DNA from: Acidithiobacillus sp. AMEEHan | GTDB lineage: Bacteria > Pseudomonadota > Gammaproteobacteria > Acidithiobacillales > Acidithiobacillaceae | Assembly: GCF_030996345.1 (NCBI RefSeq) | Contig: NZ_CP118747.1 | Span: 481,501 to 545,500 of the forward strand | DNA: 64,000 nucleotides | Reading direction: 5' to 3' | In this document: positions 31,831-35,062 of the stretch, piece by piece | How positions within the stretch are numbered: position 1 is the first letter of the stretch | Layout: each line of letters begins with the position of its first letter | Made by a program: the position numbers and the translations under genes | The notes under the pieces: model-generated | Databases searched by the model: none | What the model was told of the DNA's origin: nothing | What the model saw: the letters and a program-made list of their open reading frames with translations, nothing else

Positions 31831-31874
31831 TCTCTCCTTCGGCGACGCGCCGGAAACCAGCTATAATGCCGAGC

Positions 31875-32560
31875 ATGAATGCGACTCTCAAGCCCGAATT
31901 TCGTCCTGTCCGCAGCTTCGTCCTGCGTCAAGGCCGTCTCACCGACGCGCAAGAGCGCATATTACGAGATCGCGGCAGCCATTACATTATCGATGCCAGG
32001 GAGCCCTGGCAGTCGCCCTGGCCCGGCTCCCAGCCCCTGATGTTGGAAATTGGCTTTGGCAATGGCGAGCACCTCGCGCAATTTGCGCAGCAGCATCCGG
32101 ACTGGGGCTGTGTGGGTGCAGAGGTCCACGGCCCCGGCGTCGGCGCCCTGTTGCTGCGCGCTGAAGCGCTGGAGCTGCAAAATTTGCGGGTATTGCACGA
32201 CGACATCGTACCGTGGCTGCGTGCCCTGCCAGACAGTGTCTTTGCTTTGGTGGTCATCCAGTTTCCGGATCCCTGGCCCAAAAAACGCCACCACAAACGT
32301 CGTATCATTCAACCGGACTTTTTGCAAGTGTTGCACCGGGTCGTGCAGCCGGACGGCGAGTTGCAGCTGGCCACCGATTGGCAGCCCTACGCCGAACAGA
32401 TGCTGATGCTCTTGGAGGCGGATTCCGCTTGGGAGAATCTGGCCGGCCCTGGGAACTACGCCGTCCCCCGGGAAACCGCATCCCAACCCGCTTCGAGCGC
32501 CGCGGCATGGCCCTTGGCCACCAGGTCTTCGATTTGCGCTTTGTTTGTCGCAAGACATGA
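31875..32560 (+). pseudogene. trmB: tRNA (guanine-N7)-methyltransferase TrmB, frameshifted
   Basis: The frame from ATG 31875 (ATG 31866 also possible) encodes TrmB to about residue 197: SFVLRQGRLTDAQ, MLEIGFGNGEHLAQFA, QFPDPWPKKRHHKRRIIQPDFL. After the five-C run at 32465-32469 the TrmB ending (TRFERRGMALGHQVFDLRF) continues in another frame and stops at TGA 32560. One extra C joins both parts into a normal-length protein whose stop then overlaps the next gene as ATGA, which supports the repaired model. In the written sequence the frame runs on to 32810 with non-TrmB residues. Confidence 0.88.
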
Positions 32561-33270
32561 GCTCACCGCGCATTTCCGATTGCCTGAACTGCCAGATGCG
32601 CGGCGAAAGCATTTTCGCCGGCCTCACTCCGGTGGAACTCTGCACCCTGGGAATGAAGGTGCAGGATGTCGATTGTATCGCTGGAGAAACCCTCTACCGG
32701 GCGGGAGAACCAGCCCGCTACGCTTACACTTTGCGGGAAGGGGCGGTAAAACTGGTAAAGTCCCTGAGCAACGGTCAGGAGATCATTCTGCGCTTGCTGC
32801 ATCACGGTGATCTTTTCGGTTTTGAAGGGATGCACGAGGCTGTGCACCGCCACGATGCCATCAGCCTCGCTCCCGGCCAACTCTGTCGCCTCGATCTGAT
32901 CGAACTACAGCGCCTGTCGGAGCGTCTGCTGAAAATTCGTGAGGCCATCTTTCAGCGCTGGCAGCAAGCCCTGCGCGCCAGCGAGGAGCGGGTAGTGGAA
33001 CTGGGAGCCAAGAAGGCAGACGCTCGCTTGGCTGCTTTTTTGCTGCAATGGGCGCAACGCTATCCGCGGCTGCGTGTCCTGCCCTTCCCGCTGACCCGCC
33101 AGGACCTTGCCGACTTTCTCGGCCTATCGGTAGAGCATGTCAGCCGTCTCATGGCGGAGTTCAAACGTCAGGAACTGCTGCGCGAGAGCCGCAACCAACT
33201 CGAAATCCTTGCCCCGCAGAAACTGCAGGGAATCGCCACGGCCAAATCCGACCGGTTGACTCCAGATTGA
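32557..33270 (+). CDS. CRP/FNR-family transcriptional regulator, FNR-like
   Basis: The 237-residue protein starts at ATG 32557 within the repaired trmB stop. It has an N-terminal CxxC (Cys9 and Cys12), a cyclic-nucleotide-type beta roll (ETLYRAGEPARYAYTLREGAVKL, LRLLHHGDLFGFEG), a dimer helix and a winged helix with PLTRQDLADFLGLSVEHVSRLMAEF. The recognition helix keeps Glu, Ser and Arg (E-x-x-S-R), as in FNR, which reads TTGAT half-sites. The full four-Cys cluster pattern of E. coli FNR is not obvious; other Cys are at 29 and 40 and in GQLC. A perfect FNR box overlaps its stop codon. Confidence 0.88.
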   Translation: MSSPRISDCLNCQMRGESIFAGLTPVELCTLGMKVQDVDCIAGETLYRAGEPARYAYTLREGAVKLVKSLSNGQEIILRLLHHGDLFGFEGMHEAVHRHDAISLAPGQLCRLDLIELQRLSERLLKIREAIFQRWQQALRASEERVVELGAKKADARLAAFLLQWAQRYPRLRVLPFPLTRQDLADFLGLSVEHVSRLMAEFKRQELLRESRNQLEILAPQKLQGIATAKSDRLTPD

Positions 33271-33280
33271 TCTTTATCAA
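33267..33280. promoter_or_regulatory. Perfect FNR-type box (TTGAT-N4-ATCAA)
   Basis: TTGATCTTTATCAA is a full match to the FNR/ANR consensus. It begins at the stop codon of the FNR-like gene and lies 96 bases before the next ATG (33376). A -10-like CAAGAT at 33303-33308 would put the box centre near -41.5 of a start at about 33315, the usual activator position. Confidence 0.75.
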
Positions 33281-33375
33281 TGCGTGCTTGCCTTGCCCTG
33301 GGCAAGATATCGCCATTGACGAGATTCCGCCCTCTTCGGGGGCGGCAGAGAAAAGTAAGACAAGGAGAGTCAGCA

Positions 33376-33876
33376 ATGTACCAGAACGATTCTACAATGT
33401 TCCGCGTTCGTGGCCAGGGTGGTGGCGGGCGCGCCGGTGGCGATCCTGCCCGAGCCGCACGGCACCAACATGACCAAGCGGTTTTTCATCGTCTCCTGGC
33501 CCTGCACGAGCAGATCGAACGGGATCTGGAACTGTTGCCGAATGGGGTGCGCGCCCGCACCCGTTCCGACAATCCCGAAATCGTCGCGCTCCTGCACGAC
33601 CATGTACCCTCCATGAAGCAACGGTTGGAAGAGAACTTTGGCCTGCGCTTCTGGGATCCAGCCTTTGCCGAGCTCTTTGCCCAGCACGACAAGATCCGCA
33701 TGGAGCTCACCCTGCTGCCGGATGGCGTACTGATCGAGGAGACCAGCGAAGACCCAAACGTGGTCGAGCTGATCAAGGCCCACGGCCAGGTCATCAACCT
33801 CTTCGTCGCCAAAGGCGGCGCGCAAGCACAGCAGGAGAGTCCGTTGCCGGACAGCTACCGGCGCGTGCTCGCCTGA
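33376..33876 (+). CDS. Conserved hypothetical protein with two 60-residue repeats
   Basis: The 166-residue protein starts at ATG 33376 behind AAGGAGAG. A Gly/Arg-rich N terminus of about 30 residues precedes two copies of one module, exactly 60 residues apart. Copy one has His44, LLPNGVRARTRSDNPEIVALL and His76. Copy two has His104, LLPDGVLIEETSEDPNVVELI and His136. The modules share F, H, I, LLP-x-GV, S-x-x-P and the closing His. No signal peptide is visible. I know similar uncharacterised proteobacterial proteins with the same pattern but no function. It sits between an FNR box and the SQR-like gene. Confidence 0.75.
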   Translation: MYQNDSTMFRVRGQGGGGRAGGDPARAARHQHDQAVFHRLLALHEQIERDLELLPNGVRARTRSDNPEIVALLHDHVPSMKQRLEENFGLRFWDPAFAELFAQHDKIRMELTLLPDGVLIEETSEDPNVVELIKAHGQVINLFVAKGGAQAQQESPLPDSYRRVLA

Positions 33877-33919
33877 GCTATCCTGACCACCAGCATAGAG
33901 AGAGTCACAGGAGGATTGA

Positions 33920-35062
33920 ATGGCCCAATTCACCATCATCGGCAGCGGCTTTGGTGCTTTGACGGCGGTGCGCGAGCTGCGCCGTCGCAGTCCAGAGCTG
34001 GAGATCCGCCTCGTTGCCCCCAAGCCGGAGTTCATTTACTACCCCAGCCTCATCTGGGTACCTACCGGCTTGCGCCAGGGCGAGGAACTGCGCATCGACC
34101 TGCGCGACTTCTTCGAGCGCCAACGCGTGGATTTCGTTGCCGACACCGTGCAGTCTATCGATGCCCAGGGACGCGTACAGCTGGAATCCGGCACTCAGCT
34201 CGAGCAGGACGCGCTGATCATTGCCGCCGGTGGACGCGGCCTGCGCAAATTACCGGGAATCGAGCACAGTCTCGCCATCTGTGACGGTATCGAGACCGCA
34301 CAGGAGATTCGCAAGCGTCTGCAGGGTATAGCGGGCGGCAGCATTGCCTTTGGTTTTGCCGGCAACCCTCAGGAACCCAGTGCTGTGCGCGGAGGCCCCA
34401 TCTTCGAACTGCTCTTCGGCATCGATACCTACCTGCGTCGACAGGGTATCCGCAACAAATTTACCCTGACCTTCTTCAACCCCATGCGCGAGCCGGGCAA
34501 TCGTCTCGGTGCCGCCGCCGTCGCGGGGTTGCTGGCAGAGATGGAAAAGCGCCAGATTCATACCCATCTCGGGCATAAGATTATGGGCTTCGATGCGCAG
34601 CAGGTGCATACCGAAGGAGGCGACATCGATGCCGACCTGATCCTTTTCATGCCTGGCATGACCGGCCCGTCCTTTGCTGCCAACAGCGGTCTGCCGCTTT
34701 CACCTGGGGGATTCCTGCAGGCCGACAATCATTGTCAGGTTCCCGGACTGCCTGGGGTCTATGTGGTGGGGGATGCAGCATCCTACGGTGACAGTCCGGA
34801 CTGGCTACCCAAACAGGGGCACAGCGCCGACCTCCAGGCCAAGACTGCGGTGCACAATGCCCTTTGCCATCTGCAAGGGAAAGCGGCAGATCAGACATTC
34901 CGCCAGGAACTCATCTGCATCGTCGACAGCCTCGACGGCGGCAATCTCGTGTATCGCACCCCCAACACGGCGCGCGTCGTGCCCGGCTCCTGGTGGCATC
35001 TGGCCAAACGTGCCTTCGAATGGCGCTATCTGGCCCCCTATCGTCCCCGTTCTGCCGGGTAA
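33920..35062 (+). CDS. SQR-like FAD-dependent pyridine nucleotide-disulfide oxidoreductase
   Basis: The 380-residue flavoprotein starts at ATG 33920 with GGAGG upstream. It has an FAD dinucleotide fold IIGSGFGALTAVREL, ALIIAAGGRGLRKLPG and a second FAD site GVYVVGDAASYGDSPDWLPKQGHSADLQA. This layout is that of sulfide:quinone oxidoreductases and flavocytochrome c sulfide dehydrogenases. Cys residues are at 121, 272, 316 and 333. The segment GNPQEPSAVRGGP (149-161) has no Cys where canonical SQRs carry one beside the flavin. It may oxidise sulfide differently or use another donor. A peripheral membrane location is likely from the basic aromatic C terminus. Confidence 0.8.
   Translation: MAQFTIIGSGFGALTAVRELRRRSPELEIRLVAPKPEFIYYPSLIWVPTGLRQGEELRIDLRDFFERQRVDFVADTVQSIDAQGRVQLESGTQLEQDALIIAAGGRGLRKLPGIEHSLAICDGIETAQEIRKRLQGIAGGSIAFGFAGNPQEPSAVRGGPIFELLFGIDTYLRRQGIRNKFTLTFFNPMREPGNRLGAAAVAGLLAEMEKRQIHTHLGHKIMGFDAQQVHTEGGDIDADLILFMPGMTGPSFAANSGLPLSPGGFLQADNHCQVPGLPGVYVVGDAASYGDSPDWLPKQGHSADLQAKTAVHNALCHLQGKAADQTFRQELICIVDSLDGGNLVYRTPNTARVVPGSWWHLAKRAFEWRYLAPYRPRSAG

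Follow-up and report, generated by a model that had tools for sequence, protein, structure and literature searches.

Does the FNR-family regulator gene of Acidithiobacillus sp. AMEEHan control the sulfur-related genes that follow it? The question is raised by a locus within 64,000 nucleotides of this genome (contig NZ_CP118747.1, positions 481,501 to 545,500), hereafter called the window, in whose numbering and on whose plus strand all features are given. The gene of the regulator P0001 (32557..33270; 237 amino acids; an orthologue of FNR_AF) is followed there by an FNR box (33267..33280), by the gene of an uncharacterised protein, P0002 (33376..33876; 166 amino acids), and by that of P0003, a flavoprotein similar to sulfide:quinone oxidoreductase (SQR) and counterpart of AFE_0267 (33920..35062; 380 amino acids). 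An original prediction had read these elements as a self-contained three-gene unit under oxygen or redox control. Based on a comparison with related genomes, we propose that the locus is a conserved FNR-controlled sulfur operon, which P0001 would activate at low oxygen via the adjacent box, and we give this sequence-based reading a probability of about 0.7. The genome carrying the window (2.63 Mb, nearly complete) is designated G000; the other G-codes denote genomes and the L-codes fetched loci. The publications cited by PMC number, and Osorio et al. 2019, were available in part, and statements on them refer to those parts.

A conserved FNR box and probable promoter behind the regulator gene

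The perfect FNR box that had been noted at the regulator stop codon is confirmed: TTGATCTTTATCAA overlaps that codon and is the sole exact TTGAT-N4-ATCAA in the 64-kb window. Within its own 120-base stretch it was equalled by 1 of 2000 dinucleotide shuffles. Sites with at most one mismatch number 4 in the 64 kb against 1.33 expected, and 3 of 100 shuffles gave at least 4. Exact boxes occur five times genome-wide, the other four lying inside reading frames, one of them uvrB-like.

The box is shared by relatives, whose lack of it the original prediction had named as a point that would speak against itself. It follows the regulator gene in all 21 loci with orthologues of the regulator and P0002, which were taken from the relatives' genomes and from one scan of named genomes; they comprise 18 aligned family loci (G000 included), two Sulfuriferula loci (L075 and L078) and G028, which lies on a 3-kb contig, stands outside the 18-locus alignment and had its box scored separately. 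Five of these boxes are perfect, including that of Sulfuriferula L078, 12 have one mismatch, three have two, and one is weak, with three (Sulfuriferula L075). In each of the 21 loci the box is immediately followed by TGC (33281..33283 in the window). Counting boxes with at most two mismatches, the site begins between -4 and 40 bases past the regulator stop codon in 18/18 family loci, and in the same 18 loci none lies up to 300 bases ahead of the regulator gene, in agreement with Osorio et al. 2019 on FNR_AF. Shuffle tests of single loci gave values of 0 to 0.022 for 16 of 20 loci (G028 was outside this test).

Between columns 17 and 74 past the box, only two columns reach an identity of at least 14/18, and these are the A and the T (17/18 each) of a -10-like hexamer, CAAGAT in the window (33303..33308); G028 shares both bases. 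The hexamer centre lies 32 bases from the box centre, and in class II FNR activation the box centre is found about 32 bases ahead of the -10 centre. The suitably placed -10 of the original prediction thus holds for its spacing and conservation, and falls short in the quality of the hexamer itself, to which we return below. In G006, L075 and L078, a comparable hexamer lies one base further downstream. Transcription would start near 33315, and a ribosome-binding site of P0002, AAGGAGAG, can be read from the sequence at 33362..33369. We conclude that the box-carrying unit is real, conserved and probably functional.

A G+C-rich inverted repeat (CCGCCC...GGGCGG) was also seen by eye at 33327-33345, within the presumed 5' untranslated leader of P0002.

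Composition of the unit in relatives

The expected conservation of gene order was found for regulator, box and P0002 (21/21 loci) and not for P0003, which is separated from P0002 in six genomes. Nor is the unit generally one of three genes. An ETHE1-type persulfide dioxygenase gene lies between the box and P0002 in 11 of the 19 family genomes having the regulator (G001, G003, G006, G010, G013, G015, G019, G020, G022, G025 and G028), and likewise in Sulfuriferula L075. The dioxygenase copy in L069 matches human ETHE1 (4chl) with an E value of 6.7e-61 and 4ysb, from Myxococcus, with 2.2e-85. Because 11/19 family genomes have this gene, the window holds a reduced form of the unit.

Fragments of the dioxygenase gene were detected between box and P0002 in G018, G017, G008 and G021 (0/200 shuffles each), together with a weak remnant in G023 (16/200); G008 and G018 hold a dioxygenase copy elsewhere in the genome. 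A remnant sought in G000, G007 and G002 did not rise above shuffles (169, 60 and 66 of 200), and the dioxygenase matches of these three genomes reach at most 37% identity among the matches listed, the best in the window genome, among those listed, being at 35%. The dioxygenase gene has probably been lost here more than once, with regulator, box and P0002 staying joined. Since the box remains where the dioxygenase gene was deleted, as the fragments in G018, G017, G008 and G021 indicate, we favour a function for it. A second pair of this kind was observed in G008 (C11:67533-68994), where an ETHE1-type dioxygenase gene stands beside a paralogous regulator (54% to P0001).

The gene order P0002-P0003 is found in the clade of the window, in G010, in G013 and in a group made up of G019, G020 (A. 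ferruginosus), G022 and G025. It is not found in G008, G015, G017, G018, G021 and G023, where P0003 orthologues lie elsewhere and the regulator is found near cytochrome bd genes (cydA by eye). P0002 is therefore not tied to P0003 in position, and it is the most constant partner of the regulator: of 57 genomes, it is the same 19 that contain orthologues of one and of the other (the regulator of G028 being cut by a contig end), and both are missing from the remaining 10 family genomes, some of which are incomplete.

On its 5' side the unit adjoins trmB (31866..32560), whose 3' end is overlapped by the start of P0001. Given this overlap and the lack of a box upstream of the regulator in 18/18 loci, the description as self-contained does not apply. 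Compared with G007, where the closest named relative judged by the locus is placed (Acidithiobacillus sp. YTS05, L061), trmB shows a frame change before its final ~30 codons, at 32460-32480 beside a run of C, which is either a sequencing error or a true truncation.

The regulator and its cluster ligands

The open reading frame 32557-33270 encodes an FNR-family protein, as predicted. Its domains score above the cut-offs (HTH_Crp_2 PF13545, 65.8 bits; cNMP_binding PF00027, 57.7 bits), and its recognition helix reads E-H-V-S-R, of the E-x-x-S-R type. The Fnr model PRK11161 is its best NCBIfam match, yet with 92 bits it stays under the cut-off of 228. Across 22 aligned regulators, of which two are paralogues and one lacks the N-terminus, the equivalent of Glu209 is present in 20 and those of Ser212 and Arg213 in all 22; Ala at the Glu209 position is confined to the two paralogues.

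With C9-x2-C12 and C110, P0001 has three of the four cluster cysteines of E. coli FNR (20, 23, 29 and 122). The position of Cys29 is occupied by Ser in 21/21 regulators having that residue, P0001 included. FNR_AF (AFE_0270), also without Cys29, still carries an Fe-S cluster, about 4.5 Fe per monomer having been measured in the purified protein (PMC6659574). In E. coli, FNR_AF activates transcription from PnarG, the FNR-dependent promoter of narG (PMC6659574). Because FNR_AF holds this iron without Cys29, P0001 may by analogy be taken as an FNR-type regulator that works like FNR despite the missing cysteine. The G019 regulator has the traits reported for FNR_AF in the available text, namely seven residues ahead of the first Cys, His22, Leu24, Gln28 and Cys40.

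As the fourth cluster ligand of FNR_AF, its authors considered Ser29 or Cys40 (PMC6659574). Cys40 is present in 15/22 regulators; it is absent in the two paralogues and in five regulators whose loci retain the box (G006, G015, G021, L075 and L078). Since Ser29 is invariant while orthologues retaining both box and operon lack Cys40, the comparison favours Ser29, and Cys40 is disfavoured (15/22 versus 21/21). A Ser preceding I-F-x-G-L is common in the CRP/FNR superfamily, which calls for caution in this argument.

The SQR-like flavoprotein

P0003 has the fold of a FAD-dependent pyridine nucleotide-disulfide oxidoreductase (PF07992, 74.7 bits), and its best PDB matches are SQR structures (3hyv, E 9.5e-26; 3kpk, E 2.7e-24), in line with its original designation as SQR-like. 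Its assignment as a quinone-reducing flavoenzyme is uncertain. Cys160 and Cys356 of AfSQR are the redox cysteines. C121, C272 and C333 are invariant in the 13 sequences compared; C333 is the equivalent of Cys356 and C121 lies one column off Cys128, and an equivalent of Cys160 is absent from all 13. The alignment stops at residue 371-372 of the 380 in P0003, at 391-399 of 430-434 in the SQR structures, and the C-terminal part is mostly missing; in type I SQR, C-terminal helices anchor the protein to the membrane. Because the Cys160 equivalent is absent, P0003 may work by a chemistry different from that of other SQRs, or may not be a quinone reductase. A separate canonical SQR in the genome (L121) has both redox cysteines.

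In A. ferrooxidans, overexpression of AFE_0267 improved sulfur oxidation, as a phenotype, only without oxygen, and 'sdo12' transcripts were higher anaerobically in the wild type, the available text not stating which sdo genes were meant (PMC12016491). P0003 orthologues (61-66% identity) are found without a P0002 orthologue in G005, G009, G012, G024 and G027, of which G005 is 61% and G012 71% complete. P0002 was also considered as an obligate subunit of P0003, as in a flavocytochrome-c-like pair; this is a weak candidate, each protein occurring without or away from the other.

P0002 and its protein family

P0002 is a duplicated-module protein, as had been proposed, with 13/43 identities at a 60-residue shift (0/5000 shuffles). 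The AlphaFold2 model (mean pLDDT 87, pTM 0.80) contains two alpha-beta-beta-alpha repeats, which together with the repeat test delimit residues 24-86 (33445..33633) and 95-146 (33658..33813), and places His76 and His136 at equivalent repeat positions. Across 35 family members, Met1, Leu40, His44, Arg49, Gly57, His76, Met80, Phe101, Gly117, Glu122, Ile133, His136, Phe143 and Gly147 are invariant. P0002 contains no Cys, and a role as sulfur carrier was rejected on this ground.

No known family was recovered for it. The best Pfam score of P0002 alone was 19 bits against a cut-off of 29.8, with no NCBIfam match, and the 35 members gave best E values of 0.00054 in Pfam and 0.0019 in NCBIfam; a Flg_hook match in Pfam (E 0.0013, under the cut-off) is taken as chance. 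By sequence, the PDB yielded no relative (best E 0.061 alone and 0.71 as a profile). Foldseek gave no clear relative by fold (best E 0.11), and a second structural comparison had its best score with Pcc1 of KEOPS (Z 5.0, root mean square deviation 3.0 over 75 residues).

The family is rare, being found in 7/398 genomes of a phylum sample (the window genome included, one match weak at E 3e-4). The closer relatives outside Acidithiobacillaceae occur in Sulfuriferula, Sulfoacidibacillus, Thioclava and other Rhodobacteraceae, and except in Sulfuriferula the gene has neither the regulator nor an SQR-like gene as neighbour. In Rhodobacteraceae copies (L076, L077, L082-L085) a palindrome like GTTATCAGATAAC, whole or in part, was seen by eye ahead of the P0002-family gene, with no FNR box.

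A second clade (L088-L111) comprises periplasmic-looking proteins with signal-peptide-like starts and Met-rich ends. Their gene follows a CusA/CzcA-type RND gene in 19/24 loci, several of which are near-identical, five of the 19 RND matches being partial; of the other five loci, L092 starts at the gene, in L109 the RND gene is more distant, and L107, L110 and L111 have none. Among loci L061-L087, 0/27 follow an RND gene. The window genome has its own second-clade paralogue (L058:17596-18189). These paralogues are candidate metal-binding accessory proteins of copper-type efflux. Cus-type copper/silver efflux operons include the small metallochaperone CusF, and the likeness of the second-clade loci to such operons is one of gene context; P0002 itself has by eye no signal-peptide-like start and adjoins sulfur genes. 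In view of the invariant His and Met, the lack of Cys and the efflux link of its paralogues, we tentatively consider it possible, if somewhat doubtful, that P0002 binds a soft metal such as copper.

Relation to known systems

The counterpart locus is that of A. ferrooxidans ATCC 23270, with AFE_0270 (FNR_AF), AFE_0269 (sdo), AFE_0268 and AFE_0267 (sqr); the matching of locus tags rests on papers and relatives and not on the ATCC 23270 genome itself. The order of regulator, dioxygenase, small protein and SQR-like protein also occurs in relatives such as A. ferruginosus L071, and the window differs from it in having no dioxygenase gene; the gene that follows the box in the relatives is the one matching the ETHE1-type enzymes 4chl and 4ysb. 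A similar arrangement is the sdo2 cluster of A. caldus (A5904_0789 to A5904_0792), where the genes of a putative regulator and an ETHE1-type dioxygenase are accompanied, two positions along, by one that is sqr-like; it has been presented as a set of co-localised sulfur genes, in texts whose available parts do not mention FNR control or a box. With E. coli FNR and its class II promoters the locus shares the E-x-x-S-R helix, the TTGAT-N4-ATCAA site and the distance from box to -10; unlike these it has Ser for one cluster Cys, an invariant TGC flank, and a site behind the regulator's own gene.

Wu et al. 2017 (PMC5584763) placed sqr (AFE_0267) downstream of sdo (AFE_0269), noted the same order for sdo2 and an sqr-like gene in A. 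caldus, and described regulator genes close to sdo genes. The dioxygenase activity of AFE_0269 and of A. caldus A5904_0790 has been reported as well (review, PMC6335251). A5904_0789 was named a putative one-component regulator (PMC5093147). Overexpression of afeI in sulfur medium lowers AFE_0267 and AFE_0269 transcripts, and a lux-box has been described at AFE_0269 (PMC7984328); the sqr tested in work on RegA was AFE_1792, not AFE_0267 (PMC5506826). FNR_AF itself has been published as the master regulator of anaerobic life in a model acidophile, and no test of a target in its own host was found in the available text (PMC6659574). The available parts of PMC2621215 and PMC10322971 contain nothing on the box, and none of the main texts searched, as far as available, mentions AFE_0268 or gives a role for it or for a box before AFE_0269. 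No text was found that joins FNR_AF or the box to the operon, an earlier prediction by Osorio et al. 2009 being possible. The statement that such a unit had not been described is thus too broad, since there are publications on the regulator, on the SQR and on the sdo-sqr neighbourhood. As far as found, what is new is the joining of regulator, box and operon, and the small protein; most parts were separately known.

Other sites and regulators in the genome

The genome has six HTH_Crp_2 matches, five of them above the cut-off. The extended site TTGAYN5TCAATGC occurs at two places in G000, one of which is the locus, and at none in a reversed control. The class II pattern occurs at four places against one in the reversed control: the locus, two copies of a DNR-type site flanked by ATCAAGG, and L160, near which frames resembling transposase and reverse transcriptase were seen by eye. 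These counts come from pattern searches for the best sites, and the small number of good sites elsewhere is only suggestive of a regulator that may be local.

The DNR-type site belongs to a regulator gene without the N-terminal Cys pair, which by eye is divergent from globin-like and ferredoxin-reductase-like genes (L165:1-2288 and a near-copy, L170), with TTGACCAAGATCAAGG lying between the DNR-like and globin-like genes; judged by eye, this is likely a nitric oxide (NO) response unit. A second DNR-like copy, L036, has its regulator frame cut short. Another FNR-family gene, with C-x2-C and Ala at the Glu209 position, is divergent from cytochrome bd genes (L058:3705-7291), and L058 contains no box with at most one mismatch.

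Proposed mechanism and alternative explanations

Based on these observations, we propose that a conserved sulfur operon is under FNR control and that the locus represents its Igneacidithiobacillus form. P0001, the orthologue of an oxygen-tolerant [4Fe-4S] protein, would bind as a dimer to the box lying 3' of its gene; at low or no oxygen it would recruit RNA polymerase in the class II manner, leading to transcription of P0002 and P0003. In most relatives of the family the persulfide dioxygenase gene, first in order, would be transcribed too. The products would handle sulfide and sulfane sulfur from low-oxygen or ferric-iron-linked sulfur metabolism. The oxygen or redox control of sulfur genes put forward originally finds support to this extent, the conserved box and the work on A. 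ferrooxidans being consistent with control by low oxygen (PMC6659574, PMC12016491). The binding of P0001 to the box, the direction of control and the role of P0002 are what we infer.

Several points weigh against this reading. The related loci share descent, which inflates the counts, and four single-locus shuffle values exceed 0.05 (G003, 0.055; G022, 0.0605; G006, 0.1195; L075, 0.374). The -10 of the window is weak, with 3/6 matches. The co-occurrence of regulator and P0002 carries less weight than it seems, since a single deletion can remove two adjacent genes together. In twelve P0002-family loci (Rhodobacteraceae, Sulfoacidibacillus and a Thermoanaerobaculia record), no box with at most two mismatches lies within 450 bases, and the sequence retrieved shows neither the regulator nor an SQR-like gene as neighbour; the FNR link is therefore not a property of the whole P0002 family. 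The Arg that stands in the Cys160 column of P0003 in 13/13 sequences, the window included, fits poorly with an ordinary SQR, and the ancestral unit begins with a dioxygenase that requires oxygen, an ill fit to strictly anaerobic activation. Finally, FNR_AF alters in air over hours only (PMC6659574), so that oxygen is perhaps not the signal.

This slow response, together with the Ser for Cys29 in 21/21 regulators and the persulfide dioxygenase and SQR-like protein of the ancestral operon, would fit a P0001 that acts at the box in response to sulfide, sulfane sulfur or NO at its cluster or cysteines, the operon then being a sulfide-stress response. We consider this unlikely, as the AFE_0267 phenotype appeared only without oxygen and 'sdo12' transcripts rose anaerobically in the available account, no sulfide-response data were found, and the DNR-like regulator by the globin-like gene is the likelier NO sensor. 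The repressing ability of FNR proteins and the overlap of the window box with the regulator stop codon leave room for repression of the operon, or for a box that autoregulates the upstream gene instead of the downstream ones. This is very doubtful in view of the spacing to the -10, which fits class II activation in 17/18 loci, and of the lack of a box 5' of the regulator in 18/18, as in Osorio et al. 2019.

With six HTH_Crp_2 matches in the genome, the box could also serve another CRP/FNR protein, DNR-like or cyd-linked, and P0001 could regulate something else. The box adjoins a P0001-type gene in 21/21 loci and has its distinct TGC flank, the Glu209 equivalent is replaced by Ala in the cyd-linked paralogue, and next to the globin-like gene there is a separate site, TTGACC...ATCAAGG, for the DNR-like regulator, all of which makes this explanation highly improbable. 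That the box is a functionless chance match is next to negligible: the pattern has only ten fixed bases and four more perfect copies lie inside reading frames, but place, flank and -10 spacing are kept in 21 loci, including those with new surroundings and those that lost the next gene. Activation of the operon by P0001 at low oxygen is the reading that we retain.

Implications

The locus offers a candidate target of FNR_AF in its own host, with a 17-base site kept in Acidithiobacillia and in Betaproteobacteria (Sulfuriferula). It also bears on the fourth cluster ligand, Ser29 being invariant and the alternative Cys40 absent from orthologues in which box and operon are kept. A further, distinctly unlikely idea is that P0001 is no master switch but a local FNR serving almost this operon alone. 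Its 3-Cys/1-Ser cluster would have become slow to react with oxygen and responsive to sulfide or sulfane sulfur, and its core target would be a new cytoplasmic family of His/Met metal-binding proteins that has copper-linked relatives in the periplasm; if true, soft-metal handling would be tied to the sulfide level in metal-loaded acidic habitats. The P0002 family, which lacks annotation, has invariant His and Met and is represented in bioleaching bacteria both in sulfur operons and in efflux operons of the copper type.

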